Origin: Trichormus sp. M33_DOE_039
GTDB taxonomy: Bacteria > Cyanobacteriota > Cyanobacteriia > Cyanobacteriales > Nostocaceae
Assembly: GCA_015296085.1 (NCBI GenBank)
Contig: DVDT01000095.1
Coordinates: 1 to 64,000 of the forward strand
Length of the DNA stretch: 64,000 bases
Reading direction: 5' to 3'
Shown here: positions 9,324-60,989 of the stretch, piece after piece
Layout of the letters: each line of letters begins with the position of its first letter
Numbering within the stretch: position 1 is the first letter of the stretch
The notes under the pieces: generated by a model
What the model was told of the DNA's origin: nothing
Seen by the model: only the letters and a program-made list of their open reading frames with translations
Database searches by the model: none
Position numbers and translations under genes: made by a program

Positions 9324-10370
9324 TTACTTAGTGAAAGTTAATTGTTGTAGTGGTAAAGTTTCTTTTTGAATAGGTGGTAACTCAATTTTATTTTTTGGTA
9401 GCGACTTTGCATAACGATCAGTGAGAAAACGATTAATTTTTCGATCTACTTTCTTCAAAAACCTTTTTAATGGTTTGTTTTCATTACCAAAGCTAACTTG
9501 ACGGACAAAAGGTTTAATAATTGTTGCTACTCTTCTCACACCCAATTTTTTGTATTTAGTTTGAAAATAACCATCTTCCGATAAATTCCATTTAGTACGG
9601 ATGCGTTGGAGACTCCCTAATGTCCAAGCGTCACTCCAACGCAGCATATAAAAGTGTAAATCACTCCACTCTAAGGGAGGGCCTGGTACATAAGTAACTA
9701 CACTATCAGGTTCAAAATAAACTTTACCACCTGCCTGTCGCACAGTCATACAAAAATCTAGATGTTCTTTAGTGTTGAGCATCTCTTCATCTAAATAGCC
9801 GATTTGCTCAAATATTTCAGTACGAACTAAAGTGCAGTGAAATTCTGCCAATTCTGTTTCAGTACGCTGGAGTTGGGGAAGTAATTCTGATATTTGATGA
9901 CCTTGTTTGTACATCTTCTCACGGAGATGTCGCCTGCCCTTAATATCGATGACAATATGACTTTCTCCACCAGCAAAGTGAACCCTTTGGTGTATAGGTT
10001 GTTTTTCGCACATTAAAGGGCCGACAACAGTTGCACCTGTTATTTCTGCACAATTAACTAAGGCTTCTAACCAACCTGGAGAAACTATGACATCGTTATC
10101 AATGAATACTAGATATTTAGTATCAACGTGGCTCAAACCGATATTACGTGCATGGTTAGGAGATAGATAGTAATTAGTGTGAATTAATTTAAAGTTCTTT
10201 TCTTGTGCTTTCGTTTGCAGATAACTATGAACTTTATTTAGGGAATTACCATCAATATAAATTAGTTTGAAGGGAATTTTAGTATATTCATAAATACTTT
10301 CTAGAGATGCTTGAGTGCAGCTAAAACGTTCACGAGGTACAACAACCAGGGTCACAATTGGTTCTAACAT
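9324..10370 (-). CDS. Family 2 glycosyltransferase (GT-A fold)
   Basis: This ~348-residue inverting glycosyltransferase has the GT-A nucleotide-sugar region (residues 5-110). The DxD-like metal motif reads VFIDNDVIV (~90), preceded by SPNHARNIGL, and an acceptor-side segment LNTKEHLDFCMTVRQAGG lies near 205-222. No membrane segment is visible, so it is a cytoplasmic or peripheral enzyme. The ATG at 10370 has GGAG 9 nt upstream and is preferred over one 15 nt earlier. It is the last gene of the minus-strand arm, 23 bp after the GT4 gene. The sugar is unknown. Confidence 0.85.
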   Translation of the reverse strand: MLEPIVTLVVVPRERFSCTQASLESIYEYTKIPFKLIYIDGNSLNKVHSYLQTKAQEKNFKLIHTNYYLSPNHARNIGLSHVDTKYLVFIDNDVIVSPGWLEALVNCAEITGATVVGPLMCEKQPIHQRVHFAGGESHIVIDIKGRRHLREKMYKQGHQISELLPQLQRTETELAEFHCTLVRTEIFEQIGYLDEEMLNTKEHLDFCMTVRQAGGKVYFEPDSVVTYVPGPPLEWSDLHFYMLRWSDAWTLGSLQRIRTKWNLSEDGYFQTKYKKLGVRRVATIIKPFVRQVSFGNENKPLKRFLKKVDRKINRFLTDRYAKSLPKNKIELPPIQKETLPLQQLTFTK

Positions 10371-10393
10371 TATTAATAACTCCATTTTAATTG

Positions 10394-11683
10394 TTAAGAG
10401 TTGGAACTGATTAATCGCTTGTCTGCAAAATGATCTGTGGTTAATTTACTATGTAAAATCTGTTGATAAATTGCTACTAATTCATCATTTAGCTTGTCCA
10501 TGTCGTATTTTTCTACAACACGCATACGTCCAGCTTTACCCATTTTTCCCCACAGTTCGGGATGTGTAATTAAGTAGGATAATTTATTGGCGATCGCATC
10601 CACATCTCGTTCTGGAACTAAAAACCCTGAAACACTATCTTCGACTAGTTCAGGAATCCCGCCGTGTTGGGTACTAATCACAGGTAAACCCATCGCCATT
10701 GCTTCTTTTAATGTATTGACTGGTGCGTCTTGATTTCCATCTTTCCCGGTGATACTAGGTGCGACAAAAATATGGCATTGATTCAGAATTTCGATAATTT
10801 CTTTTTGTTGTTTCCAGCCTAATAATTTAACGATGTGATTGAGACCTAGGCTAGAAATCAGTTTTTGGAAATATTCTTTTAATTCTCCATCACCGATAAT
10901 ATTGTATTCAAGATGAGGGTGATATTTAACTATTTGAGCAATAGCTTTGATGACATATTCAATTCCTTTTTTTTCCACTAAACGTCCAGTAGTGGCGATG
11001 CGGATAATCCCATCGTTAGGAAAATCACGTTCTTTAAAAAAGAAATTATTACAATCAATTCCTGAACCGTGGATATGAATCTTGTGTGCATCACAACCCA
11101 AAGCCACAGCTTTATTTTTGAAAAATTCACAGTTAGCTAAAAAGTAGTCTGTTTCCGTAAATAATTCCTGATATACCTTTTCTCCCCACTTGGGGAGAAA
11201 CTTACTAATATCTGAACCCCGGAAAGTAGAAATTAATTTACCTTCAATTAAACCAAGTTGACGAAACCACACACCAAACACACCTAACGTGCTGAATTGA
11301 CAGTGAATGATGTCGTAAGATTTTTTTTCTAAAAAGGGTAACGCTCGATAGAGCATTTTTAATGATTTGGCTTGGCTGACATAGCGGTTAGTATCGAGTA
11401 ATTGTAGACAGACAGTGGGGTTTTTATAAAAGTTGAGCAGTAGTAAAGTTAAGCCTTTAACCCATCGCCATAACTCATTCTTTGGTCGAGTGGGAGCATA
11501 AATTGTTCGTTTGATTAGCTGATATTTTTCAACCAATGGGTGTACTTTAGATGTATCTTGAGGACGACCATCAAGGGAATAAATATCAACCTCATGTCCG
11601 CGCTCTATTGTACCGACGATTTGATTTAAAATAAAAGGCTCAGATAGCACTGGGAAATGTGCTACGAAGAATGCGACTTTCAT
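10394..11683 (-). CDS. Family 4 glycosyltransferase (copy 1)
   Basis: This 429-residue retaining GT-B glycosyltransferase resembles WcaL-type enzymes of exopolysaccharide clusters. The N-terminal acceptor domain starts MKVAFFVAHFPVLSEPFILN. The nucleotide-sugar domain has TTGRLVEKKGIEY (~231-243), GDGELKEYF and the terminal motif KEAMAMGLPVISTQHGGIPE. The usual EX7E motif reads as DX7E, because DAPVNTLKE has Asp in the first position. The next gene upstream encodes a close paralogue, long stretches of whose C-terminal half are identical, so the pair arose by tandem duplication. Gaps of about 10-24 bp to its neighbours suggest one operon. Confidence 0.9.
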   Translation of the reverse strand: MKVAFFVAHFPVLSEPFILNQIVGTIERGHEVDIYSLDGRPQDTSKVHPLVEKYQLIKRTIYAPTRPKNELWRWVKGLTLLLLNFYKNPTVCLQLLDTNRYVSQAKSLKMLYRALPFLEKKSYDIIHCQFSTLGVFGVWFRQLGLIEGKLISTFRGSDISKFLPKWGEKVYQELFTETDYFLANCEFFKNKAVALGCDAHKIHIHGSGIDCNNFFFKERDFPNDGIIRIATTGRLVEKKGIEYVIKAIAQIVKYHPHLEYNIIGDGELKEYFQKLISSLGLNHIVKLLGWKQQKEIIEILNQCHIFVAPSITGKDGNQDAPVNTLKEAMAMGLPVISTQHGGIPELVEDSVSGFLVPERDVDAIANKLSYLITHPELWGKMGKAGRMRVVEKYDMDKLNDELVAIYQQILHSKLTTDHFADKRLISSNS

Positions 11684-11692
11684 AAATTTATA

Positions 11693-12976
11693 TTAGATAT
11701 AGTTTAATTCCTGCCTCAAAGCCTGTTGAGGTAATTCTGGTTTCAGTAGTTGTTGATAAATCGCAACTAATTCATCATTGAGCTTATTCATATCGTATTT
11801 ATTTTCAACACAGTTACGCCCAGCTTTACCCATGTTTTCCCATAGTTCGGGATGTGTAATTAGATAAGATAATTTATTTGCGATCGCATCCACATCTCGT
11901 TCTGGGACTAAAAAACCTGAAACCCCATCTTCTACTAGTTCAGGAATCCCGCCGTGTCGGGTACTAATCACAGGTAAACCCATCGCCATTGCTTCTTTTA
12001 ATGTATTTACTGGCGCATCTTGGTTCCCATCAACAGCAGTTACACTAGGAGCAATAAAAATGTGAGCATGATCAAGAATTTCGACAATCTCTTTTTGCTG
12101 TTTCCATCCCAACAATTTGGCAATATGACCAATATTGAGTTCAGTAATCAGTAACTCAAACTGTTCCTTTAACTCCCCGTCACCGATAATATTGTATTCA
12201 ATATTCGGATGAATTCCCGCTACTTTAGCAACTGCGCGGATAGCATATTCTATCCCTTTCTTTTCTACTAACCTTCCTGTTGTGGCAATCTGAATTTTAC
12301 CATTTGCAGGGAAATGACGGGATTTAAAGGCGAATTTATGACAATCTAAACCAGAACCATGAACAAGGATTTTATGAGGATCACAGCCTAAATTAATGGC
12401 GCGATCGCCAAAAAATTTGCAGTTTGCCAAGAAAAATTCTCCTTCTCGGAAGAGTTGTTTATAAACATCTTTTCCATTTTCTTGGACATATTTACTAATA
12501 TCAATACCGCGAAAAGTTGTAATTAATTTACCAGAAATTATTCCTGCTTCACGATAAGCAAGAGCAATAGGAGATAACGTCCCAAATTGACAGTGAATAA
12601 TATCATATGCACCATCTTGAAGTAAAGACTCAATACGATAAAATGTTTTTAAAGTGGCTAATTCTTTGTCATACTTCCCAGGCTGGAAAAAACGCAAACT
12701 CTTTAAAGAGCCTTTGTGAATATTTTTAATCAGTAATACTATACCCTTGAAAAATCGCCAAATAATATTTTGAGGTACAGTAGGTGGGAAATATGTGCAT
12801 TCCATTAGCTTATATTCTTCTATAATAGGATGTACCTTCCCTGTATAATTTTTTGGTAACCCATTCACAGGATGAATATAAACCTCATGTCCACGGTCAA
12901 TTAAACCTGTAATTTGATTTAGAATAAACGCCTCAGATAAAACCGGGAATCGCCAAACAATAAACGCCACTTTCAT
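11693..12976 (-). CDS. Family 4 glycosyltransferase (copy 2)
   Basis: This 427-residue paralogue of the preceding enzyme has the same architecture: MKVAFIVWRFPVLSEAFILN at the N-terminus, GRLVEKKGIEYAIRAV in the centre, GDGELKEQF, and the donor motif DAPVNTLKEAMAMGLPVIS. The N-terminal acceptor halves differ more than the C-terminal donor halves. This suggests the two use a similar sugar nucleotide but different acceptors and act one after the other on a growing oligosaccharide. That is inference from the divergence pattern. It lies 14 bp downstream of the histidine phosphatase stop codon. Confidence 0.9.
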   Translation of the reverse strand: MKVAFIVWRFPVLSEAFILNQITGLIDRGHEVYIHPVNGLPKNYTGKVHPIIEEYKLMECTYFPPTVPQNIIWRFFKGIVLLIKNIHKGSLKSLRFFQPGKYDKELATLKTFYRIESLLQDGAYDIIHCQFGTLSPIALAYREAGIISGKLITTFRGIDISKYVQENGKDVYKQLFREGEFFLANCKFFGDRAINLGCDPHKILVHGSGLDCHKFAFKSRHFPANGKIQIATTGRLVEKKGIEYAIRAVAKVAGIHPNIEYNIIGDGELKEQFELLITELNIGHIAKLLGWKQQKEIVEILDHAHIFIAPSVTAVDGNQDAPVNTLKEAMAMGLPVISTRHGGIPELVEDGVSGFLVPERDVDAIANKLSYLITHPELWENMGKAGRNCVENKYDMNKLNDELVAIYQQLLKPELPQQALRQELNYI

Positions 12977-12990
12977 AGTTAAACCTCGGT

Positions 12991-13710
12991 TTAATTACGC
13001 AATATTTTATATTTATGAAGCCTCTCTTCGTCCTTACTCAAAAAATTAATATGATGGGTTAAGTTCATCACTTCTAATTTTCCAGAAGCCAAAGAACCAT
13101 CAGAAAAATTGAGTATGCTTATCCCACAGTTTGACTGATGAAAAGAATGATAAAATGCCGGACTTATACCCAAAGCCGTGCTGATTAAAGCCCGATTTGT
13201 CCCTCCATGTGCAACAACCAACAAAGTTTTACCTACATTATTTGGTAATACCTCGTGCCAAAATTCTTGCACCCGTGCAAATAAACTCAGAGCAGGATAA
13301 AATCGTGTCTCAGCATCTACCTGCATCCAAAACTCATGGGGACGTTGTTTCCAAAGTTGATATGCTTCCGGGAAAGTTTCTCGCACATATTGAAATGCTA
13401 ATCCCTCCCAGTTAGGCAAATCATTTTCTCTTAACTTATCAGTAATAAAAACTGCCTTTGGTAGAACATTAATTACCTCTAAAATTTCCTTAGCGGTTTC
13501 CTGCGCTCGTTTTAATGAACTAATATAAACAGCATCAAATGCTATTCCCTGCAAAAACTCACCTGTAATTCGTGCATCTCTGCGTCCAATTTCAGTTAAT
13601 ACAGACTTATCACTGCTACCTTGATATAAACCCAAAACATTAAATGTACTCTCTCCGTGGCGGAGAAGAATCACGCGAGTTCCGGGAGAATGTTTAAGCT
13701 TCAACAGCAT
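12991..13710 (-). CDS. Histidine phosphatase (phosphoglycerate mutase-like)
   Basis: This ~239-residue member of the histidine phosphatase superfamily has the phosphohistidine motif LLRHGEST near residue 16 and the second catalytic histidine in VVAHGGTNRAL (~170). Family members are 2,3-bisphosphoglycerate-independent phosphatases, mutases or sugar-phosphate phosphatases. The exact substrate is not readable. The ATG at 13710 overlaps the 3' end of the ABC exporter gene by 17 bp and follows a GGGAG site, indicating translational coupling; an earlier in-frame start at 13770 would overlap by 77 bp. Its place in a sugar cluster suggests removal of phosphate from a sugar or glycerate intermediate. 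Confidence 0.85.
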   Translation of the reverse strand: MLLKLKHSPGTRVILLRHGESTFNVLGLYQGSSDKSVLTEIGRRDARITGEFLQGIAFDAVYISSLKRAQETAKEILEVINVLPKAVFITDKLRENDLPNWEGLAFQYVRETFPEAYQLWKQRPHEFWMQVDAETRFYPALSLFARVQEFWHEVLPNNVGKTLLVVAHGGTNRALISTALGISPAFYHSFHQSNCGISILNFSDGSLASGKLEVMNLTHHINFLSKDEERLHKYKILRN

Positions 13711-15538
13711 AGATATCTCCCTCTGCATCGACAATACTTTGCATCCGGTATAAAGTGGCGTAACAACCACCTAAACGCATCAGTTCGGTGTGTGTACCTT
13801 GTTCTAAAATGCTTCCTCCTTCGACGTAGAGAATCATATCTGCGTTCTCTACCGCCTTAAGATTGTGGGAAATAATAAAAGTTGTACGTCCCTCAGTTAA
13901 CTTACTGAGTGCGGCGTTGACGATATATTCACTTTTTTTATCTAAACCTGTGGTGGGTTCATCCAGAATTACTATCGGTGCTTGTCTGATTGCAGCACGA
14001 GCGATCGCAATTCTTTGTCTTTGTCCTCCTGATAGTGTACCACCGCGATCGCCCAAAATTGTATCGTAACCTTGGGGCAAGTTGATGATAAATTCATGTG
14101 CGTTCGCTAATTTTGCAGCTTGTTCCACCTCTTTTTGGGAACATCCTAATTTACCGTAAGCAATATTTTCTCTAACACTCACGCCAAATAACACACTATC
14201 TTGCAAAACTACGCTAATTTGCTGTCTGAGAGAATTTAAAGTATATTCGCGGATATCTTGACCATCGATTAAAATGCGTCCCGCTTCTGGATCGTACAGT
14301 CGTAAAATTAAACTCAGGAGTGTTGATTTACCGCTACCGGAAGCTCCTACTATTGCTACTTGCTGTCCTGGTTGCACAGTAAAACTAATATCTTTTAAAA
14401 TATCCTTCCCCGTATCGTAGCCAAAGTAAACATTTTCAAAACGTACCGCACCAAAAAAAGGATGCGAGGGTTTCGCCTGCGGTAAATCTTGCACATTTGG
14501 TTCATAGTCGAGAAGTTCCACTACCCGTTCCCCGGAAGCAGTCGCTTTAGCAATTTGTCCGATTTGGTTGGAAAGTTTCCGCATCGGTTCAAAAGCATTT
14601 TTCAAATAAGTCATGAATACCAACAATTCTCCAGGTGTGAGTTCCTTATTTAGCACTACATGAGAACCCCGCCACAACACCGCAGCAATAATAATCGCCA
14701 TCAAAATTTGTACACCCCTTTCGAGTGCAGCTGACAGTCTTAAAGATTCGATAGCTTCATCTAAACTCTTTTTATTTTGTGTTGAGAAAACATCGTGCAG
14801 CATTTTCTGAAGAGATAGGACTTGTACAACTTTAATTGCGCCGATAGTTTCACCAGTAGTTGCTGCTAAAACACCTTCTGAATCACGATGTTTTTTCGCA
14901 AATTTACGAATGCGGCTAATCATATTACTGGTTAATAACATTAAGACCGGGAAAATAGCCATCACTACTAATGCTAATTCCCAATTGAGCCAAAACATAA
15001 TACCTAACATCCCCAAACAAGAGAATGTATTAGTAAATAAAGGCAAAGCTGTTTTTACAGTTACAGTCCTCATCTTTTCAATATCAGCGGTGACACGAGC
15101 AATTAAATCTCCACTCTTAGATTTCTGGTGGAAGGATAGAGAAAGATGTTGTAAATGATTGAAAACATCAGCACGCACTTCTGATAATATTCGTACCACA
15201 GCCAAGGACATGCCATAGGTGCTGAGGTATGCAGCTATGCTACTAATACCAGAAATCACAACAATTGCTATAGCCGATATAGTTAATAATAAAACTGGAC
15301 TTAATCCATAAGTTTGAGTAAAATTTACTGAGTTAGTATGAGATGGTATAAGGATATAATCAAATACATATTTTAAAGGCCAAGGCTCAAGTAAATGCAA
15401 GCCAGTTTCTAGTACAAGTGCCAGAAAAGAACCAGCTATTAAAATTTTTTGTTGATGAATATAGGATGAAAATTTCTCTAAGATTTGTAAAATACCTGGA
15501 ATAACTCCCTTTAAGTCTTTTTCTTTAGCACGACCCAT
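13694..15538 (-). CDS. ABC exporter, fused permease and ATPase (copy 1)
   Basis: This 614-residue half-transporter has six membrane segments in residues ~30-320. The ATPase domain follows with Walker A GASGSGKST (~395), the signature LSGGQRQRIAIARA (~500) and Walker B IVILDEPTTGLD. This is the MsbA/lipid-flippase type of type IV ABC exporter and should act as a homodimer in the inner membrane. Within a glycosyltransferase operon the likely cargo is a lipid-linked saccharide or glycolipid. A paralogue in the other arm (25114-26910) shares the unusual N-terminal LEPWPLK(Y/F)VFDY. The histidine phosphatase start overlaps its 3' end. Confidence 0.92.
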   Translation of the reverse strand: MGRAKEKDLKGVIPGILQILEKFSSYIHQQKILIAGSFLALVLETGLHLLEPWPLKYVFDYILIPSHTNSVNFTQTYGLSPVLLLTISAIAIVVISGISSIAAYLSTYGMSLAVVRILSEVRADVFNHLQHLSLSFHQKSKSGDLIARVTADIEKMRTVTVKTALPLFTNTFSCLGMLGIMFWLNWELALVVMAIFPVLMLLTSNMISRIRKFAKKHRDSEGVLAATTGETIGAIKVVQVLSLQKMLHDVFSTQNKKSLDEAIESLRLSAALERGVQILMAIIIAAVLWRGSHVVLNKELTPGELLVFMTYLKNAFEPMRKLSNQIGQIAKATASGERVVELLDYEPNVQDLPQAKPSHPFFGAVRFENVYFGYDTGKDILKDISFTVQPGQQVAIVGASGSGKSTLLSLILRLYDPEAGRILIDGQDIREYTLNSLRQQISVVLQDSVLFGVSVRENIAYGKLGCSQKEVEQAAKLANAHEFIINLPQGYDTILGDRGGTLSGGQRQRIAIARAAIRQAPIVILDEPTTGLDKKSEYIVNAALSKLTEGRTTFIISHNLKAVENADMILYVEGGSILEQGTHTELMRLGGCYATLYRMQSIVDAEGDIYAVEA

Positions 15539-15563
15539 TAATTATCTTTCTCCTTATTAAATA

Positions 15564-16778
15564 TTAATCTTTATAAACCTGGCCTCTCACAGCAATTGAT
15601 GATTTGGTTTGATTTAGAAAATCATGCAGAAAAATCGCTGTTTTCTCGGCACCATGCAAATCAAATTTGTGAGAATCATCTAAAACTATATTTTTGTTTA
15701 AACAACTAATAATTCTATCTACCAGATGAGATGCTTCTAAATCTTGTGGAGGAATATAATCAACAATTCCTAAATTTTGTAACTTTTGAGTTCTGACTAA
15801 TTGTTCTTTATCTTGTTGCTCATGACCAATTGGAACAACGATAGCACGTACACCCGTACTCAAAATATTCATGGTTGTGTTATAACCACTTAAACTAAGA
15901 GAAATATCAGCCGTTTGCATATAAGCAGGTAGCTGTAAAGTATATGTTTCAATATGAATATTGTCTTGATGTACGGCAAATTGCTTTAATTGTTTCGCTT
16001 TTGCATCTGGCATGAATGGGCCAGTAAATATTTTAATAATATGTGGTATTTTTTTTGATAAAATTTGACTTGCAGCTATCACTGTTTCTAAAAGTTCATA
16101 GCCGATTCTCCCGCCACCAACACTCACTAAAATTTTTACTGTTTCTGGATTTGCTTCTCCCCACAATCTATAACTACGAAAATTTGCTGTTACAGATTGG
16201 GTCACGAACCCAGTATGAATAATTTCTGATTTGATATCTCTATATCTACTAAAACTCTCTGAAAATTTTAGAAATCTAGCATCTGAGTGAAAGAGTAATA
16301 AATCAAAATAGCGATTCATTAAATCGCAGATAGTTTCCTCTTCTTCTGGAGTAGATTCTTTGCCAATCACATCACGTAAACTGCAAACAATTTTTGTATC
16401 AGGACTTGCAGTTTTGATATATTCAACTAAAGGAATTAACTCAAAAAATAGCTTGTGTCTACCAAAGGGAAAAAATTCCGTAATTAAACAATCAGGTTTA
16501 ATTCTGTTAAATTCCGAAATTAATAAACTTTTTCTGATTTCTTTGACTTCCTCAACACTTTTATCTCTATCATTGACTCTAAATTTACCATCTTCTAACC
16601 ATAGTGCAGGTAGTCTAATTAATTTTACTTGTGGCGGTATTTCAAAACCTGCTATTTCTGGGCCTCCACAAATAAAATATACTTGAAAATATTTAACTAA
16701 ACTCCGCACTATTTCTGTGCTTCTTACTAAATGACCCATACCGCTAAGGTACTGGCAATAAAACATGATTTTTTTCAT
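15564..16778 (-). CDS. MurG-like (GT28-type) glycosyltransferase A
   Basis: This ~404-residue GT-B enzyme has an N-terminal glycine loop (YLSGMGHLVRS, near residue 10), a central ILVSVGGGRIGYE (~220) and the donor-site SLSGYNTTMNIL (~300). The last is the counterpart of the MurG GGSGA loop. Such proteins transfer sugar from UDP-sugars, often to a lipid carrier at the membrane face. The chosen ATG (16778) overlaps the 3' end of the upstream paralogue by 35 bp; an alternative start lies 18 nt earlier. Two paralogues are in the locus (16744-17961, 21338-22612). Donor and acceptor are unknown. Confidence 0.85.
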   Translation of the reverse strand: MKKIMFYCQYLSGMGHLVRSTEIVRSLVKYFQVYFICGGPEIAGFEIPPQVKLIRLPALWLEDGKFRVNDRDKSVEEVKEIRKSLLISEFNRIKPDCLITEFFPFGRHKLFFELIPLVEYIKTASPDTKIVCSLRDVIGKESTPEEEETICDLMNRYFDLLLFHSDARFLKFSESFSRYRDIKSEIIHTGFVTQSVTANFRSYRLWGEANPETVKILVSVGGGRIGYELLETVIAASQILSKKIPHIIKIFTGPFMPDAKAKQLKQFAVHQDNIHIETYTLQLPAYMQTADISLSLSGYNTTMNILSTGVRAIVVPIGHEQQDKEQLVRTQKLQNLGIVDYIPPQDLEASHLVDRIISCLNKNIVLDDSHKFDLHGAEKTAIFLHDFLNQTKSSIAVRGQVYKD

Positions 16779-17961: not shown

Positions 17962-18056
17962 AATTGTTACCAAATGACGTTGGGATATTGATGGCAGAAA
18001 CATCCGTTTGATGTTCTCTTGCTGATACATATAATTACTGTTGTAGATGAATTCTT

Positions 18057-18084
18057 CATGAAACTTTCATGAGAAGGTTCTCAT
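18057..18084. promoter_or_regulatory. Two overlapping palindromes, putative operator 1
   Basis: CATGAAA-C-TTTCATG (18057-18071) overlaps ATGAGAA-GG-TTCTCAT (18069-18084). Both are perfect 7-bp dyads, typical in size of helix-turn-helix regulator sites. They lie in the divergent region. The second motif recurs 121 bp away with a different 2-bp spacer, which argues against chance. Confidence 0.6.
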
Positions 18085-18189
18085 CAAGCTGTTAAACATA
18101 TTCATCAGTATTTTTCCAGACTAGAACGGGAATAATCACCATTTTTGGATGCAGCGAATAGGCAATCTCTCATATCTGGTGCTGGTTTT

Positions 18190-18227
18190 ATGAGAACTTT
18201 CTCATGCTTCCTTCATTACTTTCTCAT
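18190..18227. promoter_or_regulatory. Palindrome plus half-site, putative operator 2
   Basis: ATGAGAA-CT-TTCTCAT (18190-18205) is a second perfect dyad of the same type. The sequence ACTTTCTCAT then repeats 22 bp further on, ending at 18227, about two helical turns away on the same face. The group lies 115-150 bp before the permease start codon. Confidence 0.6.
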
Positions 18228-18341
18228 AAAGCTTTGATTAAACTGACTTTAAGCTGAAATTAATCAACACTCAGTAACACTTACATCTTAATTTAGGAGC
18301 TACATAAACTTACTAAGATTAATAAAATTAAATAGAGCAAA

Positions 18342-19808: not shown

Positions 19809-19877
19809 GTGCCGATTGGATTGAATTGATTTAGTTCCCGATTTAATGACGACAAAACGGCTGGGTTGCCGTAGGAA

Positions 19878-21146
19878 ATGAATATGACACTGAACATTTT
19901 AATCGCTCCCTCTGGATTTAAAGAAAGTCTAGATGCCGAACAAGTGGCTGATTGCATTGCTACTGGGATTACTAGAGTTATTCCCGATGCTAATATCTGC
20001 AAAGCACCCTTAGTAGATGGGGGTGAAGGCTTTACTAAAACTCTGGTAGCAGCTACAGGCGGAACTTTACATCATTTGACAGTCACCGGGCCTGTGGGGC
20101 AAAAAGTAGCAGCTCACTTTGGTTTTCTTGGTGGAACGACAAAAAAAACTGCCGTGTTAGAAATGGCTGCTGCGGCTGGGTTGCGCCTCGTACCCTTGGA
20201 TATGCGAAATCCCATGATAACAACAACCTACGGTGTGGGAGAGTTAATCAAAGCTGCCTTAGATGCTGGTGCAGAACGCATTTTAGTTGGCTGTGGTGAT
20301 TCTGGTACTAATGATGGCGGTGCGGGAATGGCTCAAGCCTTAGGTGTGCAGTTATTAGATGAAAATGGTCAGCAGTTAGGTTTGGGTTGTGGCGAATTAA
20401 TTAAACTTAAGCGCATTGATTTATCTCAAAGAGATCCTCGTTTAAATCGAGTCAAGATTGATGTGGCTTGTAACTGGCATAACATCTTGTGTGGTGAAAA
20501 CGGTGTAGCGAAGATTTTCGGCCCACAAAAAGGAGCATCTCCAGCAACAGTGGCAGCAATGGCTGCTGCACTAGAACACTACGCCGCAGTTATTCAAACA
20601 GAGTTAGGGATTGAAGTACGCAAAATGCCTGGTGGCGGTGCTTCTGGTGGTTTGGGTACAGGTTTACACGCTTTAATTGGAGCTAATTTACACTCGCGCT
20701 ACGATATCGTTATGCAGTATTTGGAGTTGGATAATCTCATACCCGCAGCTGATTTGGTGATTACGGCGGAAGGTTGCATTGATTGCCAAACCCCACGCGG
20801 TAAAATTCCGGCGGAAGTAGCAAAGCGTGCCAAGCGTTATCAGTTACCAGTAATTGCACTTGTTGGCACTATTGGCGAAGGTGCAGACATCAATCTCCAG
20901 CAAGGCATTGATTATTTTAATAGTATTTTGACTCATCCTTGTCAATTGAGTGAGGCTATTGTTCAAACCTCAACTTTGCTAACAAATGCAGCTGAACAGG
21001 TAGCGCGGCTGCTGTTAGTTGGGAGGCAAATTAGCAGCTTTAATAATGCGCGTTTCAAACATATGAGATTCAATTATCCTAATTTATCTGCAAAAAATCA
21101 AAAATTTAAACCAGTACAAATTGTCCCTAGAAGAATATTGTCATAA
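19878..21146 (+). CDS. Glycerate kinase (type I family)
   Basis: This 422-residue kinase phosphorylates glycerate with ATP, giving 2- or 3-phosphoglycerate depending on the subtype. Family features include MTLNILIAPSGFKESLDAEQ at the start, LVDGGEGFT, the glycine-rich GCGDSGTNDGGAGMAQALG (~145) and MPGGGASGGLGTGLHAL (~255). The last 40 residues (after RLLLVGRQ) extend beyond the usual ~380. In cyanobacteria the enzyme normally closes photorespiration. Here it sits between an anion permease and glycosyltransferases, so a role in making a glycerate-containing saccharide, or in using imported glycerate, is possible but unproven. Confidence 0.9.
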   Translation: MNMTLNILIAPSGFKESLDAEQVADCIATGITRVIPDANICKAPLVDGGEGFTKTLVAATGGTLHHLTVTGPVGQKVAAHFGFLGGTTKKTAVLEMAAAAGLRLVPLDMRNPMITTTYGVGELIKAALDAGAERILVGCGDSGTNDGGAGMAQALGVQLLDENGQQLGLGCGELIKLKRIDLSQRDPRLNRVKIDVACNWHNILCGENGVAKIFGPQKGASPATVAAMAAALEHYAAVIQTELGIEVRKMPGGGASGGLGTGLHALIGANLHSRYDIVMQYLELDNLIPAADLVITAEGCIDCQTPRGKIPAEVAKRAKRYQLPVIALVGTIGEGADINLQQGIDYFNSILTHPCQLSEAIVQTSTLLTNAAEQVARLLLVGRQISSFNNARFKHMRFNYPNLSAKNQKFKPVQIVPRRILS

Positions 21147-21337
21147 TTGGTGTTAGCAACACATTATTTATCAGGTGAATCTTTAGAGAACGTACAAGTA
21201 ATATCATATTTCTACGACTTCAGTTGCTTGAATTTTTAAATAGCTTACCAATTCTCTACTATTCAGATGTTGATTGATTTGTTAGTTAATTATCAAAATT
21301 TAAAAATTTTTCAACCCCGTCAATCTGGTGTGTTCTA

Positions 21338-22612
21338 ATGAACAACTTCTTACCCGAATTTGGAGAAATCCCCAGAACATCTTCTAGTATCGTGTCTTCA
21401 CAAATTAGTAGTTTAGTTAGTAATCATCGTAAATGTCGCATTGCTTTATATTCTCACGACACAATGGGGCTAGGACACAAACGTCGTAATTTGTTGATTG
21501 CTCAAACTTTAGGATGTTCACCCCTAAAGACTGATGTTTTAATGATTAGTGGTATTCCAGATGCTAGTAATGTACCAACACCTCCAGGGGTAGATTGTTT
21601 GACTCTCCCAGCTTTGCGTAAAAACATTGATGGGCAATATCAGGCCAGAAGATTGGATTTATCATTACAGGAAATTATTACACTACGATCGCAAGTCATT
21701 CTTACTACTATCAAAACCTTTAAGCCTGACATTTTCATTGTGGATAATGTGCCACGAGGCGCAGTGAGAGAATTAGATCCCACCCTAGAATATTTGCGTA
21801 GCCAAGGCAAAACACGCTGCATTCTCGGTTTACGGGATATCTTAGATGAACCCGCTTCTGTGCGCCGAGATTGGAAGCGGGGAGCTAATGAAGAAGCGAT
21901 TCAAACTTATTATGATCAGGTTTGGGTGTATGGCGATCGCAATATCTATGACCTAGCCAAAGAATATCACTTCCACCCCAAAACCGTTGCTAAATTTCGC
22001 TACACTGGCTATCTTGACCAACGTAGTCGCCTCAAACATCTGAATTTAGACAGCGTTCAAGCATTTAAATCCCTGAATCTAACATCTGAAAGATTAGTAT
22101 TGTGCTTAGTGGGTGGTGGACAAGACGGCGCACAGTTAGCAGAAACCTTTGCTCATGCTGAACTACCACCAGAGATGAACGGTATCATCTTGACAGGGCC
22201 ATTTATGCCGCGAGAAGTAAGGCAACAGTTGAGGAATTATGCAGCGCAGCGTGATAATTTGCGTGTCTTGGAATATTTAGTTGAGCCAACGCTGTTAATC
22301 AATCAAGCCGAACGGGTGATTGCAATGGGTGGTTACAATACCACTTGTGAACTGTTGTCATTTGGCAAGCGATCGCTCATTTTACCCCGCATCAAACCCC
22401 GCAAAGAACAATTAATCCGTGCGGAAAGATTACAAGCACTGGGTTTAATTGATATACTGCATCCCCATCAACTGATACCCGCTGCAATTAGCGACTGGCT
22501 CAGGCAAGATATTGAACTACCACCAGTCCGTAATTTCGTTGATCTCAAAGGACTTACCCGCATACCCCAATTCATCGATGAAATCCTGATTTCTGCTCAT
22601 CAAGCATCTTGA
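21338..22612 (+). CDS. MurG-like (GT28-type) glycosyltransferase C
   Basis: This 424-residue GT-B enzyme carries ~35 N-terminal residues before the core. It has ALYSHDTMGLGHKRRNLL (~36-53), CLVGGGQDGAQLAETF (~255), LTGPFMPREV and the donor loop AMGGYNTTCELLSFG (~328). It is the plus-arm counterpart of the enzyme at 16744-17961. No signal or membrane segment is seen; MurG-like enzymes bind the cytoplasmic membrane face. It is followed 27 bp later by a GT4 gene. A second start at the conserved core is not supported by a ribosome-binding site. Confidence 0.85.
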   Translation: MNNFLPEFGEIPRTSSSIVSSQISSLVSNHRKCRIALYSHDTMGLGHKRRNLLIAQTLGCSPLKTDVLMISGIPDASNVPTPPGVDCLTLPALRKNIDGQYQARRLDLSLQEIITLRSQVILTTIKTFKPDIFIVDNVPRGAVRELDPTLEYLRSQGKTRCILGLRDILDEPASVRRDWKRGANEEAIQTYYDQVWVYGDRNIYDLAKEYHFHPKTVAKFRYTGYLDQRSRLKHLNLDSVQAFKSLNLTSERLVLCLVGGGQDGAQLAETFAHAELPPEMNGIILTGPFMPREVRQQLRNYAAQRDNLRVLEYLVEPTLLINQAERVIAMGGYNTTCELLSFGKRSLILPRIKPRKEQLIRAERLQALGLIDILHPHQLIPAAISDWLRQDIELPPVRNFVDLKGLTRIPQFIDEILISAHQAS

Positions 22613-22639
22613 ATAGTCAACAATCAACAGTCATCAACT

Positions 22640-23908
22640 ATGTCCATGTGTGTCGGTTACGTTCTCAAACGTTATCCCCGTTATTCTGAAACCTTTGTTG
22701 TTAATGAAATTCTGGCTCATGAAACAGTCGGCTTAAAAATTGAGATTTTCGCTTTGAGACCACCTGCTGACACCCACTTTCAAAATATTATTTCTCAAGT
22801 ACGTGCGCCTGTAACTTACATTCGTAAGCCGATTCAAGGTAGGGTGAGCGATTCACTTAATAGTCTCGCACCTACAGCCGCTAGTTATTTTTGGGCAGAA
22901 TTACAAGAAGCTAGTCAAGTTATCCCCGATTTTTGGTCAAAACTGGGCTTTGCTCAAGGTGAAAAAGCCAGCACTGTCTACCAAGCTGCATGGTTAGCGC
23001 GAGAAGTAAAACTTAAAGGGATTACTCATTTACACGCTCATTTTGGGACTGTAGCAACTAGCGTAGCTCGGCTAGCATCTCACTTTACAGGCGTTCCTTA
23101 TACTTTTACTGCTCATGCTAAAGACATCTTTCATGAAAGCGTTGAATTTGAGGATATGGAACGCAAGCTGAAAGATGCGGCTAAGGTGGTGACAGTCAGT
23201 GACTATAATCTCAAATATCTGCACAAGAAATATAATTTGGCTGCAAACCAAGTTAAACGCATCTACAACGGTTTAGATTTGCGACAATTGCAATATTCTT
23301 CCCCGGCTGAACGTCCGCCATTGATTATCTCCGTTGGTCGGTTAATCGAGAAGAAAGGTTTATCTATTTTGATTGATGCTTGTGCGATTCTCCAGCAGCA
23401 AAATTATCAGTTTCAGTGTCAAATTGTTGGTACTGGTTCTTTAGAATCGTCTTTGCGTCAGCAAATTGTCGATTTAGGACTGCAATCTTGTGTGGAAATT
23501 GTCGGTGCGCGTCCGCAAAATGAGGTGTTTGAATTGGTGCAGCAGGCGGCTGTGTTTGCTGCGCCTTATGTGATTGGTAAAGATGGTAATCGGGACGGAC
23601 TACCTACAGTTTTACTGGAAGCTATGGCTTTGGGAACTCCCTGTGTGAGTACGAATGTGACGGGGATTCCTGAAGTGGTGAGGGATGGGGAGACTGGGTT
23701 GATTGTAGGGCAATATGATGCGGATGAGTTAGCGATCGCTCTTGGGCAACTTTTGAAGGATGCAGCTTTGCGGGTGAGGTTGTCTACTCAGGCTAGGAGG
23801 TTGATTGAGTCTGAGTTTGATATTTGTCTGAATACGGAGGTGTTAAGGGAGTTATTTTTCACGCAGAGACGCGGTTCGCTGTTCGGCAAAGCCGTTCTCG
23901 TAGAGTAA
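22640..23908 (+). CDS. Family 4 glycosyltransferase (copy 3)
   Basis: This 422-residue retaining GT-B enzyme begins MSMCVGYVLKRYPRYSETFV. It has the acceptor-domain motif HLHAHFGTVATSVARL (~132), SVGRLIEKKGLSILIDA (~231) and the donor motif RDGLPTVLLEAMALGTPCVS, again DX7E rather than EX7E. It resembles the minus-arm GT4 pair. The last ~15 residues (QRRGSLFGKAVLVE) appear to be encoded by a dispersed repeat that runs on past the stop codon, so the original C-terminus was probably replaced. Confidence 0.9.
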   Translation: MSMCVGYVLKRYPRYSETFVVNEILAHETVGLKIEIFALRPPADTHFQNIISQVRAPVTYIRKPIQGRVSDSLNSLAPTAASYFWAELQEASQVIPDFWSKLGFAQGEKASTVYQAAWLAREVKLKGITHLHAHFGTVATSVARLASHFTGVPYTFTAHAKDIFHESVEFEDMERKLKDAAKVVTVSDYNLKYLHKKYNLAANQVKRIYNGLDLRQLQYSSPAERPPLIISVGRLIEKKGLSILIDACAILQQQNYQFQCQIVGTGSLESSLRQQIVDLGLQSCVEIVGARPQNEVFELVQQAAVFAAPYVIGKDGNRDGLPTVLLEAMALGTPCVSTNVTGIPEVVRDGETGLIVGQYDADELAIALGQLLKDAALRVRLSTQARRLIESEFDICLNTEVLRELFFTQRRGSLFGKAVLVE

Positions 23909-23935
23909 GCGTTCCCGGAGGGTGGCACAGAGGAG
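23861..23935. repeat. Dispersed repeat overlapping a glycosyltransferase 3' end
   Basis: The sequence CACGCAGAGACGCGGTTCGC, continuing through GGCAAAGCCGTTCTCGTAGA to AAGCGTTCCCGGAGGGTGGC, resembles dispersed intergenic repeats of Nostoc-type genomes. It covers the last codons of one GT4 gene and most of the gap to the next. Confidence 0.5.
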
Positions 23936-23943
23936 GTATAAAG

Positions 23944-25113
23944 ATGAGAGTTGCTTATATTTGTGCTGATGCGGGGATTCCTGTGTTTGGGCAGAAGGGA
24001 TGCTCGATTCATGTGCAGGAGGTGATCCGGGCTTTACAAGGGCAAGGTTTAAGGGTGGATTTGTTTGCTACTCGGATGGGGGGAGAATTACCTGGGGATT
24101 TGGCTGGATTGGTGGTGCATCAACTTCCGGCTATTCCCAAAATGGAAAGACGGCAACGAGAGCAAGTAGCTTTAGGAATGAATCCTGATTTGCGGTTAAG
24201 TTTGGAGAAATCTGCACCTTTTGATTTGGTTTATGAGCGTTATTCTCTGTGGAGTTATGGCGGGATGGAATTTGCCCAAGCTATGGGAATTCCAGGTTTG
24301 TTGGAGGTGAATTCACCTTTAATTTTAGAACAAGCACAGCATCGCGGTTTGATTGATCGGGATGGGGCGGAAGCGGTGGCACGTCGGGTGTTTTCAGCCG
24401 CTACAGCTTTGATTGCGGTTTCTGAGGTGGTGAAAACTTACTTGATAAATTACGTAGATGAGAGCAAAATTCATGTTATCCCTAATGGTGTCAATCCTCA
24501 CCGCTTTTCTACTCTGTGTCCCGAAACTAACTCAGAAAGTTTTACGGTGGGATTTGTTGGGAGTTTGAAACCTTGGCATGGATTACCAATTCTCACGGAG
24601 GCTTTTAACTTACTGCATCAACGTGTTCCCAATGCCAAACTTTTAATTGTGGGTGATGGCCCGGAACGGGAAAATCTAGAAGCTGAATTAGCTACACGGG
24701 GATTAGATACTCACACTCAATTTACAGGTGCGGTGAATCCTGAAGAAGTACCGCAATTATTAGCTGCAATGGATGTCGCTGTTGCACCCTACGCCGCACA
24801 ATCTGATTTTTACTTTTCACCGTTGAAAGTGTATGAATATATGGCGGCTTGTTTACCTGTAGTTGTTAGTCAGATTGGGCAATTGGCAGATTTAATTGAT
24901 CATGGGGTGAATGGCCTGCTTTGTCCTCCTGGTGATGCGATCGCTTTAGCAGACGCATTAGAAAAATTATGGCGATCGCCTCATCTCTGTCATAATTTAG
25001 GACAAGCTGCACGAAAAACGGTAATAAGCCGTCATACTTGGGATGCGATCGCCAAGAAAATTATTGACATAGCTGGGCTAGATTCTCCATTACCAATGGA
25101 GGTGAAACGCTAA
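23944..25113 (+). CDS. Family 4 glycosyltransferase (copy 4)
   Basis: This 389-residue GT-B glycosyltransferase begins MRVAYICADAGIPVFGQKG, followed by GCSIHVQEVIRAL. The donor domain has FVGSLKPWHGLPIL, IVGDGPERENLEAEL and SPLKVYEYMAACLPVVVS, in which E of YEY is the family's second catalytic acidic residue. It is a different GT4 subgroup from the WcaL-like trio. The ATG at 23944 follows a strong GAGGAGG site; an in-frame start 120 nt upstream lies inside the preceding gene. It is directly followed, without a gap, by the ABC exporter gene. Confidence 0.9.
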   Translation: MRVAYICADAGIPVFGQKGCSIHVQEVIRALQGQGLRVDLFATRMGGELPGDLAGLVVHQLPAIPKMERRQREQVALGMNPDLRLSLEKSAPFDLVYERYSLWSYGGMEFAQAMGIPGLLEVNSPLILEQAQHRGLIDRDGAEAVARRVFSAATALIAVSEVVKTYLINYVDESKIHVIPNGVNPHRFSTLCPETNSESFTVGFVGSLKPWHGLPILTEAFNLLHQRVPNAKLLIVGDGPERENLEAELATRGLDTHTQFTGAVNPEEVPQLLAAMDVAVAPYAAQSDFYFSPLKVYEYMAACLPVVVSQIGQLADLIDHGVNGLLCPPGDAIALADALEKLWRSPHLCHNLGQAARKTVISRHTWDAIAKKIIDIAGLDSPLPMEVKR

Positions 25114-26910
25114 ATGCCAAAATCTCGCAACCCAGATTTTCCAGGTTTGTGGGGAGTGCTGGTTTATTTTTGGCCTGATATTCGTCCCCAGTATGGACTA
25201 CTTTTGATTTCGGCGATCGCTCTAGTTGCAGATGTCGGACTGCGAGTATTAGAACCTTGGCCTCTCAAGTTTGTGTTTGATTATGTTCTCCTGCGCGGTG
25301 AAAAGCTAAATAATCTACCCGTTAGTTTAGAACCAATCACATTACTCACACTCTCAGCCGTTGCAGTCTTACTCATTACAGGTTTACGCGCCCTTGCTGC
25401 CTATGGGAGTACCGTCGGACTCGCCACAGTTAGTAGCCGAGTTATGGCGACAGTCCGTAATCGTTTATATTGTCATCTGCAAGATTTATCTCTGACTTAT
25501 CACACTAGAGCGCGTAGCGGTGATTTAATTATTCGTGTCAGTGGCGATGCTAGCCGTCTCCAAGAAATTATGATTACGGCAGCATTACCACTATTAGTCA
25601 GCATTCTGTCTCTAGTAGGCATGATTGGGGTGATGTTTTGGATGAATCGCAGTCTCACCTTCTTGTCACTGCTTACACTGCCCTTATTTTGGCTAGTGAC
25701 TAACCGACTCAGCCGACGCATTAAAGATTCCTCACTAAAGCAACGCCAACAAGAAGGTGCGGTGGCGGCGACGGCGGCTGAGTCTCTTGCAGCCATTAAA
25801 TTAGTCAAAGCTCTCTCTCTACAAGATGCTTTTGCACGCGTATTTTCTCAACAAAATCACCGTAGTCTGAAGGAAAGCGTCAAAACCCAACGTCTAGCGG
25901 CTCACTTGGAACGTACCGTGGATGGGGTGATTGCCTTGGGAACTGCGATCGTTTTATGGTACGGCTCTTGGCTAGCTCTACGAGATGCTTTAACTCCTGG
26001 TGATGTGCTAGTATTCCTTACCTACCTAAAGAACGCCTTTAAGCCGGTGCAGAACTTCGCTAAGTACACCGGACGACTTGCTAAAGCTGCGGCTTCTAGT
26101 GAGCGCATTTTAGATGTATTAAATCAGCAACCAGATATTCGGGATTTATCAGATGCAATTCCCGCGCCAATTTTTCGAGGTGCAGTATGTTTTGATCACG
26201 TTCACTTTGCCTATGAATCAGGACAAGTTCTCCTGCAAGATATCAACTTCAATATTCAACCAGGACAGCAAGTAGCGATTGTTGGGACTTCTGGTGGTGG
26301 GAAATCGACATTAGTCAGTCTCTTATTACGGTTGTATGATCCCACATCTGGGCATGTGATGATTGATGGGCGGGATATTCGAGAATATACACTGGCATCA
26401 TTACGTCCGCAAATTAGTGTAGTGTTGCAAGATAGTCTTTTATTTGCTGCTAGTATTCGCGAAAATATTGCTTACGGTATTGCTGGGATTTCGGATGCGG
26501 AAATTGAAGCAGCGGCGCGTTTAGCTCATGCTCATGATTTTATCCAAGCTTTACCGCAAGGATACGACACCCTTGTCGGGGAAAGAGGCGCAACTCTTTC
26601 GGGGGGACAAAGACAAAGAATTGCGATCGCTCGTGCTGCGATTCGTCAAGCTCCTATCCTGATTTTAGATGAACCAACTACGGGGTTAGATAAGGGTAAT
26701 GAGAAAGGTGTGATTGATGCGCTGCAAAGACTGGCAGAAAATCGCACAACTTTCTTAATTACTCATGATCTGGATTTTGCCACCCGCGCAGATATGATTG
26801 TCTATCTAGAAAATGGGCGGATAGTGGAACAAGGTTCTCATCGGGAATTGATGCACAAAAATGGGCGTTATGCGGCTTTGTATGAGGTGCAGGCTTCTTT
26901 GAGGATTTAG
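25114..26910 (+). CDS. ABC exporter, fused permease and ATPase (copy 2)
   Basis: This 598-residue half-transporter is paralogous to 13694-15538. The membrane domain (~20-320) has the shared LRVLEPWPLKFVFDYVL and the coupling segment near TARSGDLIIRVSGD. The ATPase has Walker A GTSGGGKST (~392), signature LSGGQRQRIAIARA (~493) and Walker B ILILDEPTTGLD. The start codon follows the preceding stop immediately, so translation is coupled. Each arm has its own exporter, which suggests two different export substrates or a heterodimer; neither is decided by sequence. Confidence 0.92.
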   Translation: MPKSRNPDFPGLWGVLVYFWPDIRPQYGLLLISAIALVADVGLRVLEPWPLKFVFDYVLLRGEKLNNLPVSLEPITLLTLSAVAVLLITGLRALAAYGSTVGLATVSSRVMATVRNRLYCHLQDLSLTYHTRARSGDLIIRVSGDASRLQEIMITAALPLLVSILSLVGMIGVMFWMNRSLTFLSLLTLPLFWLVTNRLSRRIKDSSLKQRQQEGAVAATAAESLAAIKLVKALSLQDAFARVFSQQNHRSLKESVKTQRLAAHLERTVDGVIALGTAIVLWYGSWLALRDALTPGDVLVFLTYLKNAFKPVQNFAKYTGRLAKAAASSERILDVLNQQPDIRDLSDAIPAPIFRGAVCFDHVHFAYESGQVLLQDINFNIQPGQQVAIVGTSGGGKSTLVSLLLRLYDPTSGHVMIDGRDIREYTLASLRPQISVVLQDSLLFAASIRENIAYGIAGISDAEIEAAARLAHAHDFIQALPQGYDTLVGERGATLSGGQRQRIAIARAAIRQAPILILDEPTTGLDKGNEKGVIDALQRLAENRTTFLITHDLDFATRADMIVYLENGRIVEQGSHRELMHKNGRYAALYEVQASLRI

Positions 26911-26939
26911 TTTTTAAACGCAAAGGTAAGCGCAGAGGT

Positions 26940-27929
26940 ATGCAAAGTATGGGTTTTAGTGATAGTAAAATGCCTTTTTTGTCGGATGCGCTTGATCCGT
27001 TACAGGTAGAGGAGTGTTTTCATCGGTGTGTGGCGATCGCTGCAAATTGTCGTGTGCAGAAAATCCAGGTTATTCGCCATAAATTGGGGCGGCGTTGTTT
27101 GATTGAATATGAGTTAATTAATGATGCTGGGAAAATAATTACATTAATTGGTAAAGTGAGAGCTAAGGGGACAGATTTTCATAGTTATGAGTTACAAAAA
27201 TCTCTATGGCAATCGGGATTTAGTGATGATAGTCCTGATGGAATTTCTGTACCTGAACCTGTTGGTGTAATTCCTGAATGGCAGATGTGGTTACAGCGTC
27301 AGGTTGCAGGGAAAATTGCTACTCAATTTCTTTCACAAAGCAACAGTCTTTTCCCCGCCAAACTCATTGCTGAAGCTGCTCATAAACTTCACCAAGCTAA
27401 TATTATTCCTCGTCGTTCTCATACTATTTCCGATGAACTGCGAATTTTGCATGAGCGAATTCCATTAGTGATGCAACAATATCCACAATGGCAAGAACGT
27501 TTAGAAAGAGTATTAACAGCAAGTGATTATTTGGGAGAAAACACGCCAGAACCAAAAAGCTGTGGTATTCATCGTGATTTTTATCCTGACCAAGTAATTA
27601 TTAACAATTCCCGTTTATATCTCATTGACTTAGATTTATATTGTGCAGGTAATCCGGCACTTGATATCGGTAATTTTATTGCTCATCTTCAAGAATACAG
27701 TCTTCGTACTTTTGGGAATTTTCAAGTATTTCAAGATTATGAAAATGCTCTTATTACGAGATTTATTGAACTGACAGGTAATGAATTTCTCCCTGCAATT
27801 CAAGCCTATAACACTCTAACTTTAGTCCGACATCTTCATATAAGCACCCAATTTACCGAACGTCGTGCTTTTACCGAAAGACTATTAAACCTATGCGAAC
27901 AACGCCTCAAGATAACTCATGATTTATAG
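26940..27929 (+). CDS. APH-fold phosphotransferase
   Basis: This 329-residue kinase-like protein has the catalytic-loop motif CGIHRDFYPDQV (~208) and the metal-binding segment LIDLDLYCAGNPALDIGNF (~226). The standard HxDxxxxN motif has Gln instead of Asn in the last position (HRDFYPDQ). Relatives phosphorylate sugars, choline, homoserine or aminoglycosides. Being the last gene of the plus arm, it probably phosphorylates a sugar or polyol. An antibiotic-resistance role is unlikely in this context. ATGs at 26940, 26949 and 26970 are all possible; the first is taken because GCAGAGG lies just upstream. Confidence 0.8.
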   Translation: MQSMGFSDSKMPFLSDALDPLQVEECFHRCVAIAANCRVQKIQVIRHKLGRRCLIEYELINDAGKIITLIGKVRAKGTDFHSYELQKSLWQSGFSDDSPDGISVPEPVGVIPEWQMWLQRQVAGKIATQFLSQSNSLFPAKLIAEAAHKLHQANIIPRRSHTISDELRILHERIPLVMQQYPQWQERLERVLTASDYLGENTPEPKSCGIHRDFYPDQVIINNSRLYLIDLDLYCAGNPALDIGNFIAHLQEYSLRTFGNFQVFQDYENALITRFIELTGNEFLPAIQAYNTLTLVRHLHISTQFTERRAFTERLLNLCEQRLKITHDL

Positions 27930-60957: not shown

Positions 60958-60989
60958 TTAAAATTCTCATTATGATGTTGTGTTGTTTT

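Follow-up and report, generated by a model that had tools for sequence, protein, structure and literature searches.

Introduction

HepA, the MsbA-like exporter of the heterocyst envelope polysaccharide, and the Wzm/Wzt and KpsMT transporters of ABC (ATP-binding cassette)-transporter-dependent polysaccharide export, where a WbdD-type kinase marks the chain end, are among the described systems closest to the locus that we analyse here. The locus lies in a 64-kb stretch of DNA from Trichormus sp. M33_DOE_039 (contig DVDT01000095.1), referred to below as the window; it was studied from position 9324 to 27929 and the analysis was extended to 29535. Its two divergent arms each encode MurG-like and GT4 glycosyltransferases together with an MsbA-type ABC exporter of their own (Table 1). 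As with HepA, an MsbA-like half-transporter is thus encoded beside glycosyltransferases in a cyanobacterium; unlike HepA, the arm exporters fall far below the cut-off of the HepA equivalog profile (NF045513; 399.2 for the left and 380 for the right against 725), and the modules also occur outside cyanobacteria. A parallel with Wzm/Wzt or KpsMT and a WbdD-type kinase would hold only if the chain were finished before export and the kinase marked its end, and the arms differ from these systems in having a fused MsbA-type exporter and no match to OPX, PCP or Kdo families. As in alginate export through the AlgE barrel, an outer-membrane beta-barrel stands beside the glycan genes in cassette loci, but the barrel in the window is OprB and no synthase family was matched in the arms.

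A survey, made across the cyanobacterial phylum, of genes for extracellular polymeric substances (EPS) reports that several cyanobacteria lack obvious Wzx and/or KpsM/Wzm candidates; it also refers to a hypothesis under which some strains may produce EPS outside existing models (PMC4594306). Our search of the literature, covering titles and the openings of abstracts, found no description of the cassette analysed here. An earlier reading of the window, made from its sequence alone, had proposed that the two arms make and flip one or two lipid-linked saccharides. All of the genes that this sequence-only reading named are present at the coordinates it gave, and Pfam matches agree with its account of divergent arms that each hold MurG-like and GT4 enzymes and an exporter.

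Results

Conserved as an operon, the right arm encodes a MurG-like glycosyltransferase, two GT4 glycosyltransferases, an MsbA-type exporter and one or more kinases of the aminoglycoside phosphotransferase (APH) fold. We searched a set of 59 genomes of relatives, the window's own included, with the right-arm MurG-like protein at a cut-off of 1e-15. Matches were obtained in 25 genomes, one of which (G037) was weak (8e-20) and was counted as lacking the module; the other 24 are referred to as module genomes. For comparison of gene order, 27 stretches of relatives were fetched. All 13 right modules in the fetched relatives hold MurG-like, GT4, GT4 and exporter genes, always in this order, and in 11 of them the window-type kinase gene comes directly after that of the exporter. 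In locus L052 this kinase comes after one other APH-like protein, and in L053 it precedes the operon, with another APH-like protein after the exporter. A match to OprB follows the right module in 12 of the 13, and in the window the module likewise runs past 27929, where the sequence-only reading had ended the locus, into a porin gene.

We also built a profile from nine right-type MurG-like proteins and scanned a collection of one genome per species (84,980 species), which gave 335 relatives; locus counts rest on the best 80 of these 335, many of which end at contig ends and one of which has no MurG-like open reading frame (ORF). The 80 loci belong to 47 cyanobacteria, 13 Pseudomonadota, 11 Planctomycetota, 3 Chloroflexota, 2 Acidobacteriota and one each of Verrucomicrobiota, Deferribacterota, Methanobacteriota and an unclassified organism. 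All five families are found downstream in 59 of the 80, and in order in 57 of these. When only loci with at least 6.5 kb downstream are considered, the set is complete in 55 of 62: cyanobacteria 37/37, Planctomycetota 8/10, Pseudomonadota 5/9, Chloroflexota 2/3, and the archaeon, the deferribacterote and the unclassified organism 1/1 each. Glycosyltransferases and exporter are therefore conserved as one operon, which places the cassette within ABC-exporter-dependent glycan export in the broad sense. The parts of both arms co-occur in other genomes, contrary to the lack of co-occurrence by which the sequence-only reading was to be refuted. The kinases are often two, or a single fused protein of about 800 amino acids. 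No relatives were confirmed in a scan of a viral contig collection.

The cassette reaches well beyond cyanobacteria such as Picosynechococcus sp. PCC 7117, whose complete genome holds a relative. The archaeon Ca. Methanoperedens carries the complete set, with two kinases, on a 721-kb contig (identities: MurG-like 57%, GT4s 60 and 57%, exporter 59%), and in a quick tree its exporter stands beside a row from Dehalococcoidia (Shimodaira–Hasegawa-like approximate likelihood ratio test, SH-aLRT, 91), which suggests that the archaeal cassette was acquired by transfer. On plasmids of Paracoccus and Pseudorhodobacter the five genes are collinear with those of the window (44–52% identity for the four non-kinase genes), as they are on an E. 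coli plasmid (41–45%); the E. coli exporter gene occurs in 18 of 5426 genomes, always on a plasmid. Rhizobial plasmids hold a variant, which in R. etli has two MurG-like genes with one glycosyltransferase between them and an exporter of 904 amino acids. In this R. etli p42e exporter (L152:13317-16031) profiles match two stretches, about 80–470 and 750–900, as if some 280 amino acids had been inserted in the ATPase domain.

Predicted models of the first and last of the five right-arm proteins did not point to a substrate. The MurG-like model (predicted local distance difference test, pLDDT, 85.9) has a GT-B fold, and its Foldseek matches are GT-B enzymes and UDP-GlcNAc 2-epimerases; the kinase model (pLDDT 94.3) has an APH/choline-kinase fold and matches methylthioribose (MTR), choline, homoserine and aminoglycoside kinases. 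A phmmer search with the kinase against PDB gave no match at 0.1. Its catalytic loop, HRDxYxxQ, is kept in an alignment of 17 rows, one of which has N instead of Q. The MurG-like proteins stay below the cut-off for MurG itself: against the equivalog TIGR01133 (250.25) the left pair scores 32.1 and 37.5, and the right one has no match at 0.001. The second right-arm GT4 (23824–25113) more likely starts at an ATG near 23944, a start in keeping with the length of its relatives.

The exporters of the two arms are 51% identical and share the N-terminal motif that the sequence-only reading had pointed out. In its strict form (like LEPWPLK..FD..L, within the first 140 amino acids) the motif is found in 60 of 78 right-type and 15 of 16 left-type exporters; in a relaxed form it is found in 74 of 78 and 16 of 16, as well as in the one unclassed exporter, and neither form is found in the six other exporter ORFs, among them a truncated cassette exporter, L127. 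The four right-type exporters missing the relaxed motif are over-long ORFs of 702–916 amino acids. In the quick tree, for which 28 of the 101 exporter rows were dropped (near copies, over-long ORFs and others) and 73 kept, the left-type exporters form a single group of 14 rows with SH-aLRT 93. We rejected the idea that one arm arose from the other by recent local duplication, since the exporters share 51% identity and group separately, each together with exporters of other genomes. Both exporters also stay below the cut-off of 602 for the MsbA lipid A exporter (TIGR02203; left 465.2, right 427.4).

The cluster is non-standard, as had been claimed. Among the arm proteins, to which this search was confined, no Wzx, Wzy, Wzz, KpsM/Wzm or OPX Pfam family was matched; the arms thus hold neither the flippase and polymerase of a Wzx/Wzy-dependent pathway nor the separate ABC-2 permease and ATPase, with OPX/PCP, of a KpsMT or Wzm/Wzt system, and their only exporters are fused. 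No initiating phosphoglycosyltransferase family was matched among the arm proteins either.

The left arm is built from the same enzyme families, with a histidine phosphatase and a GT2-like enzyme in addition. Its two GT4s are 63% identical to each other, whereas the MurG-like proteins of the arms share 27–34% identity (34% between the first left-arm protein and the right-arm one), and in the fetched stretches the glycosyltransferase set of left modules is more variable than that of right modules. The histidine phosphatase ORF has 244–270 amino acids in the five same-genus loci that have it, the window included, and 389–434 in seven loci of other relatives; that of the window lacks a C-terminal part present in the longer relatives. 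Copies of the left-arm GT2 (59% identical) and of the GT4 at 11693–12976 (60%) lie on another contig of the same genome, C65 (L009:9232-13824). There they adjoin an ATPase with a match to the Wzt C-terminal domain and a hydrophobic, permease-like protein that matches no Pfam family, so that the same glycosyltransferases may serve two kinds of exporter.

The two arms are separable modules. Among the 24 module genomes, 5 carry both types, 9 only the right and 10 only the left, and in one of those with both (G051) they are on different contigs. The arms are adjacent and divergent in four genomes of the same genus (the window's genome, G001, G003 and G011). Their G+C contents are 0.367 and 0.427. 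The sequence-only reading had treated the arms as one locus, possibly with one product; with 19 of 24 module genomes holding a single type, and G051 split across contigs, this is not supported. The trait is patchy, as 32 of 386 genomes match in a survey of the cyanobacterial phylum.

Two sites made of direct repeats lie between the arms. From the upstream regions of modules we derived a pattern of three TCAT units with an 11-bp period (TCAT-N7-TCAT-N7-TCAT). It has two exact matches in the 7.0-Mb genome of the window, both between the arms and pointing outwards, while the reversed control has none and a shuffled window gives 0.02 matches. The segment with the plus-strand site is homologous to one before the SLC13 permease gene in G002 and to one before the right arm in G001. 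Two sites lie between the arms in three of the four adjacent-arm genomes and one in the fourth. A perfect site was found in 18 of 29 upstream regions of 800 bp (14 of 25 when four shared divergent regions are counted once) and in 1 of 290 shuffles, a frequency that is partly circular because the pattern came from such regions. In a held-out set of 76 scan loci (the 80 less four repeating fetched genomes; 1.27 Mb) there are seven sites, one of them in a gammaproteobacterium; all lie 49–445 bp before the MurG-like gene and face it, and the reversed control again gives none. That the repeats are common to both arms favours co-expression of the arms, as a prediction. The most repeat sites among the 59 genomes, 25, are in the 12.3-Mb genome G030, which has at least two left-type clusters (L056, L066).

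A candidate regulator accompanies the modules. A histidine kinase family (query, the kinase beside the right arm in G009; 1e-100) is present in 23 of the 24 module genomes and in 7 of the remaining 35 (Fisher 3e-9, uncorrected for relatedness). In 15 of the 24, as judged by eye from coordinates, its gene and a module are no more than about 10 kb apart. The kinase stands with an OmpR-type regulator and a small PepSY-like protein; all four such small proteins scanned (L157, L159, L160, L161) match PF11396 PepSY_like, and in the window's genome the three genes are together on contig C21, with the regulator at about 59315–59992 of that contig. Repeat sites lie directly before the kinase gene in G001 and G003, which suggests that it is autoregulated. 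DbfQRS, which consists of a PepSY protein, a histidine kinase and a response regulator, governs the Vibrio biofilm lifecycle (PMC12714742). The set found here resembles it in having a small PepSY-family protein no more than four genes from a two-component pair; it differs in its PF11396 protein and OmpR-type regulator. We use DbfQRS as a working analogue.

The SLC13 permease and glycerate kinase, which the sequence-only reading had placed in the right glycan arm, are present, as are the other accessory enzymes it listed, but they are part of neither module and are not needed for them. They stand side by side in 2 of 13 genomes of the genus, G000 and G002. G002 has neither arm, and in G001, G003 and G011 the adjacent arms have no SLC13 or glycerate kinase gene between them. 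Homology of the window to G002 starts at about 18189, immediately ahead of the plus-strand site, and ends at about 21046; homology to G001 reaches about 18276 and resumes at about 21313. The accessory unit and its repeat are thus shared with G002, and here the unit lies between the site and the right arm. We dropped the view of the pair as a plain insertion, since the same repeat precedes it in G002. There its neighbours are OprB, a PepSY-like gene, a histidine kinase and a regulator, which indicates that the pair is probably under the same predicted regulator as the modules. A glycerate-bearing product, also proposed earlier, was rejected, because the pair is missing from the three other adjacent-arm genomes and occurs in the armless G002.

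Porin genes recur downstream of the cassette. Where loci have 8.5 kb of room, blastp at 1e-7, which divergent barrels could escape, found a porin in 20 of 34 cyanobacteria, 3 of 9 Pseudomonadota and the one unclassified organism, and in neither of the two Chloroflexota nor the archaeon. The slot is taken by PF04966 or by PF13372; PF13372 or an alginate-export annotation is found in an unclassified bacterium, on the E. coli plasmid and on a Nitrospirota plasmid. Neighbour proteins of non-cyanobacterial loci (100 of 167 scanned) include 8 with HEAT repeats, 5 sulfotransferases and 4 alginate-export proteins. HEAT-repeat, DUF1559 and sulfotransferase genes recur beside these cassettes, and those inspected individually are all in planctomycetes (L131, L136, L140, L148 and others). 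The last gene of the E. coli set comes nearest to UDP-glucose 6-dehydrogenase (568 bits against a cut-off of 757). A nucleotide sugar dehydrogenase is encoded on the opposite strand some 8 kb from the R. etli variant, and one protein of a Nitrospirota cluster matches heparin lyase weakly (52 bits against a cut-off of 700). We regard an acidic glycan as no more than a reasonable guess for the product.

Elsewhere in the window, a DDE transposase ORF of 212 amino acids (6087–6725) lies near the left arm and adjoins a catalase gene (7062–8591), phycobilisome genes, which mark the host as a cyanobacterium, occupy 34.8–38.7 kb, and two adjoining, convergent histidine kinase genes lie at 59116–62633.

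Table 1. Genes and candidate control sites of the two arms and the unit between them (positions in the window; locus fractions refer to the 80 scan loci).
Feature	Position	Strand	Matches and remarks
GT2-like glycosyltransferase, left arm	9324–10385	-	PF00535, 8e-15
GT4 glycosyltransferase, left arm	10394–11683	-	PF00534
GT4 glycosyltransferase, left arm	11693–12976	-	PF00534
Histidine phosphatase, left arm	12991–13770	-	PF00300, 3e-45; RHG motif in sequence; start probably about 13710
MsbA-type ABC exporter, left arm	13694–15538	-	PF00664 and PF00005; LEPWPLKYVFD motif
MurG-like glycosyltransferase, left arm	15564–16796	-	PF04101
MurG-like glycosyltransferase, first gene of left arm	16744–18030	-	PF04101; start probably about 17961
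TCAT-N7-TCAT-N7-TCAT direct repeats, candidate response-regulator site	18047–18072	-	toward left arm
Second TCAT direct-repeat candidate site	18202–18227	+	toward SLC13 and right arm
SLC13-type permease, accessory unit	18342–19808	+	PF00939/PF03600
Glycerate kinase, accessory unit	19878–21146	+	PF02595
MurG-like glycosyltransferase, first gene of right arm	21338–22612	+	PF04101; YSHDTxGxGHxRRN; scan seed
GT4 glycosyltransferase, right arm	22640–23908	+	PF00534; downstream in 73/80
GT4 glycosyltransferase, right arm	23824–25113	+	PF00534; in 69/80
MsbA-type ABC exporter, right arm	25114–26910	+	LEPWPLKFVFD motif; downstream in 70/80
APH-fold small-molecule kinase, right arm	26940–27929	+	PF01636; loop HRDxYxxQ; downstream in 63/80
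OprB outer-membrane porin, right arm	27991–29535	+	PF04966, 1e-66

Discussion

The results are best read as glycan synthesis and export by arms without Wzx/Wzy, KpsM or OPX genes. We infer this pathway class from its parts, and the product and the kinase step likewise. Specifically, the locus would hold two diverged versions of one modular glycan synthesis and export pathway, with an MsbA-type exporter and often a porin, a reading to which we give a probability of roughly 0.6. The MurG-like and GT4 enzymes would build a short, perhaps acidic saccharide in the cytoplasm without Wzy, and the APH-fold kinase may add a phosphate to the acceptor or to the end of the chain, perhaps marking it for export. 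The finished chain would be the cargo of the dedicated exporter. Release of the saccharide would fall, in many organisms that have an outer membrane, to a beta-barrel porin: OprB in cyanobacteria and an alginate-export barrel in some Pseudomonadota. The PepSY-like protein, histidine kinase and OmpR-type regulator are predicted to control both arms through the repeats, with SLC13 and glycerate kinase as a metabolic accessory under the same repeat but outside the glycan pathway.

Several observations weigh against this picture. With 8.5 kb of room, a porin was undetected in 14 of 34 cyanobacterial and all eight planctomycete loci, and in the cyanobacterial locus L104 (outside the 62) the kinases and porin are on the opposite strand and no GT4 or exporter gene follows the MurG-like one. 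Beside the partial circularity already mentioned, perfect sites are missing from 11 of the 29 upstream regions and from 69 of the 76 held-out loci, and some of the seven that have one are close kin. Across the 59 genomes the pattern is unspecific: 49 have a match, and the 24 module genomes contain 89 sites (reversed control 40), the remaining genomes 63 (reversed control 59). In the window's own genome the regulator genes are unlinked to the arms, in a 19.9-kb stretch without a perfect site.

Ordinary surface-polysaccharide or lipopolysaccharide side-chain clusters, in which the glycosyltransferases extend a lipid-linked glycan, the exporter acts as a PglK- or MsbA-like flippase, and initiation, polymerisation and ligation are encoded elsewhere, would account for the best named exporter profiles (MsbA_lipidA and HepA among them, all under cut-off) and for the GT2/GT4 pair beside a Wzt-like ATPase on C65. 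However, the same core is present in Ca. Methanoperedens and in two of three Chloroflexota loci with room, and a lipid A linkage is not expected in archaea or Chloroflexota; the recurrence of porins beside the cyanobacterial cassettes also speaks against this explanation, which we consider rather unlikely. In streptomycin export a kinase-added phosphate serves as self-protection or as a protecting group, and the right arm, with three glycosyltransferases, no polymerase and an often doubled or fused kinase whose fold is near APH, choline and MTR kinases, could in the same way make a small secreted oligosaccharide. We think this improbable, as no cyclitol or amino-sugar synthesis families were matched in the arms, and both the alginate-type barrels and the nearby uronate and sulfate genes point rather to a polyanion.

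The single-type genomes, the differing G+C contents and the separate exporter groups would all fit two unrelated clusters that became adjacent by chance. Yet the arms hold the same enzyme families and are adjacent and divergent in four genomes of the genus, with sites between them in all four, which makes a chance meeting very improbable.

Returning to the two diverged versions of one pathway, we tentatively extend this reading, while considering the extension open to doubt: the cassette may represent a horizontally spread, previously undescribed class of glycan secretion, in which phosphorylation would couple synthesis to export and of which two versions are here under one divergent control region. 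Its components, in a fixed operon found across several bacterial phyla and an archaeon, would be a MurG-like glycosyltransferase, two GT4 enzymes, an exporter with the LEPWPLK motif, one or two APH-fold kinases and an exchangeable outer-membrane barrel.

For cyanobacteria, the cassette is a concrete candidate for an EPS route outside the existing models, with a small gene set and a predicted control site. Found both on plasmids and in an archaeon, it also exemplifies the movement of a probable surface-glycan system between distant lineages.

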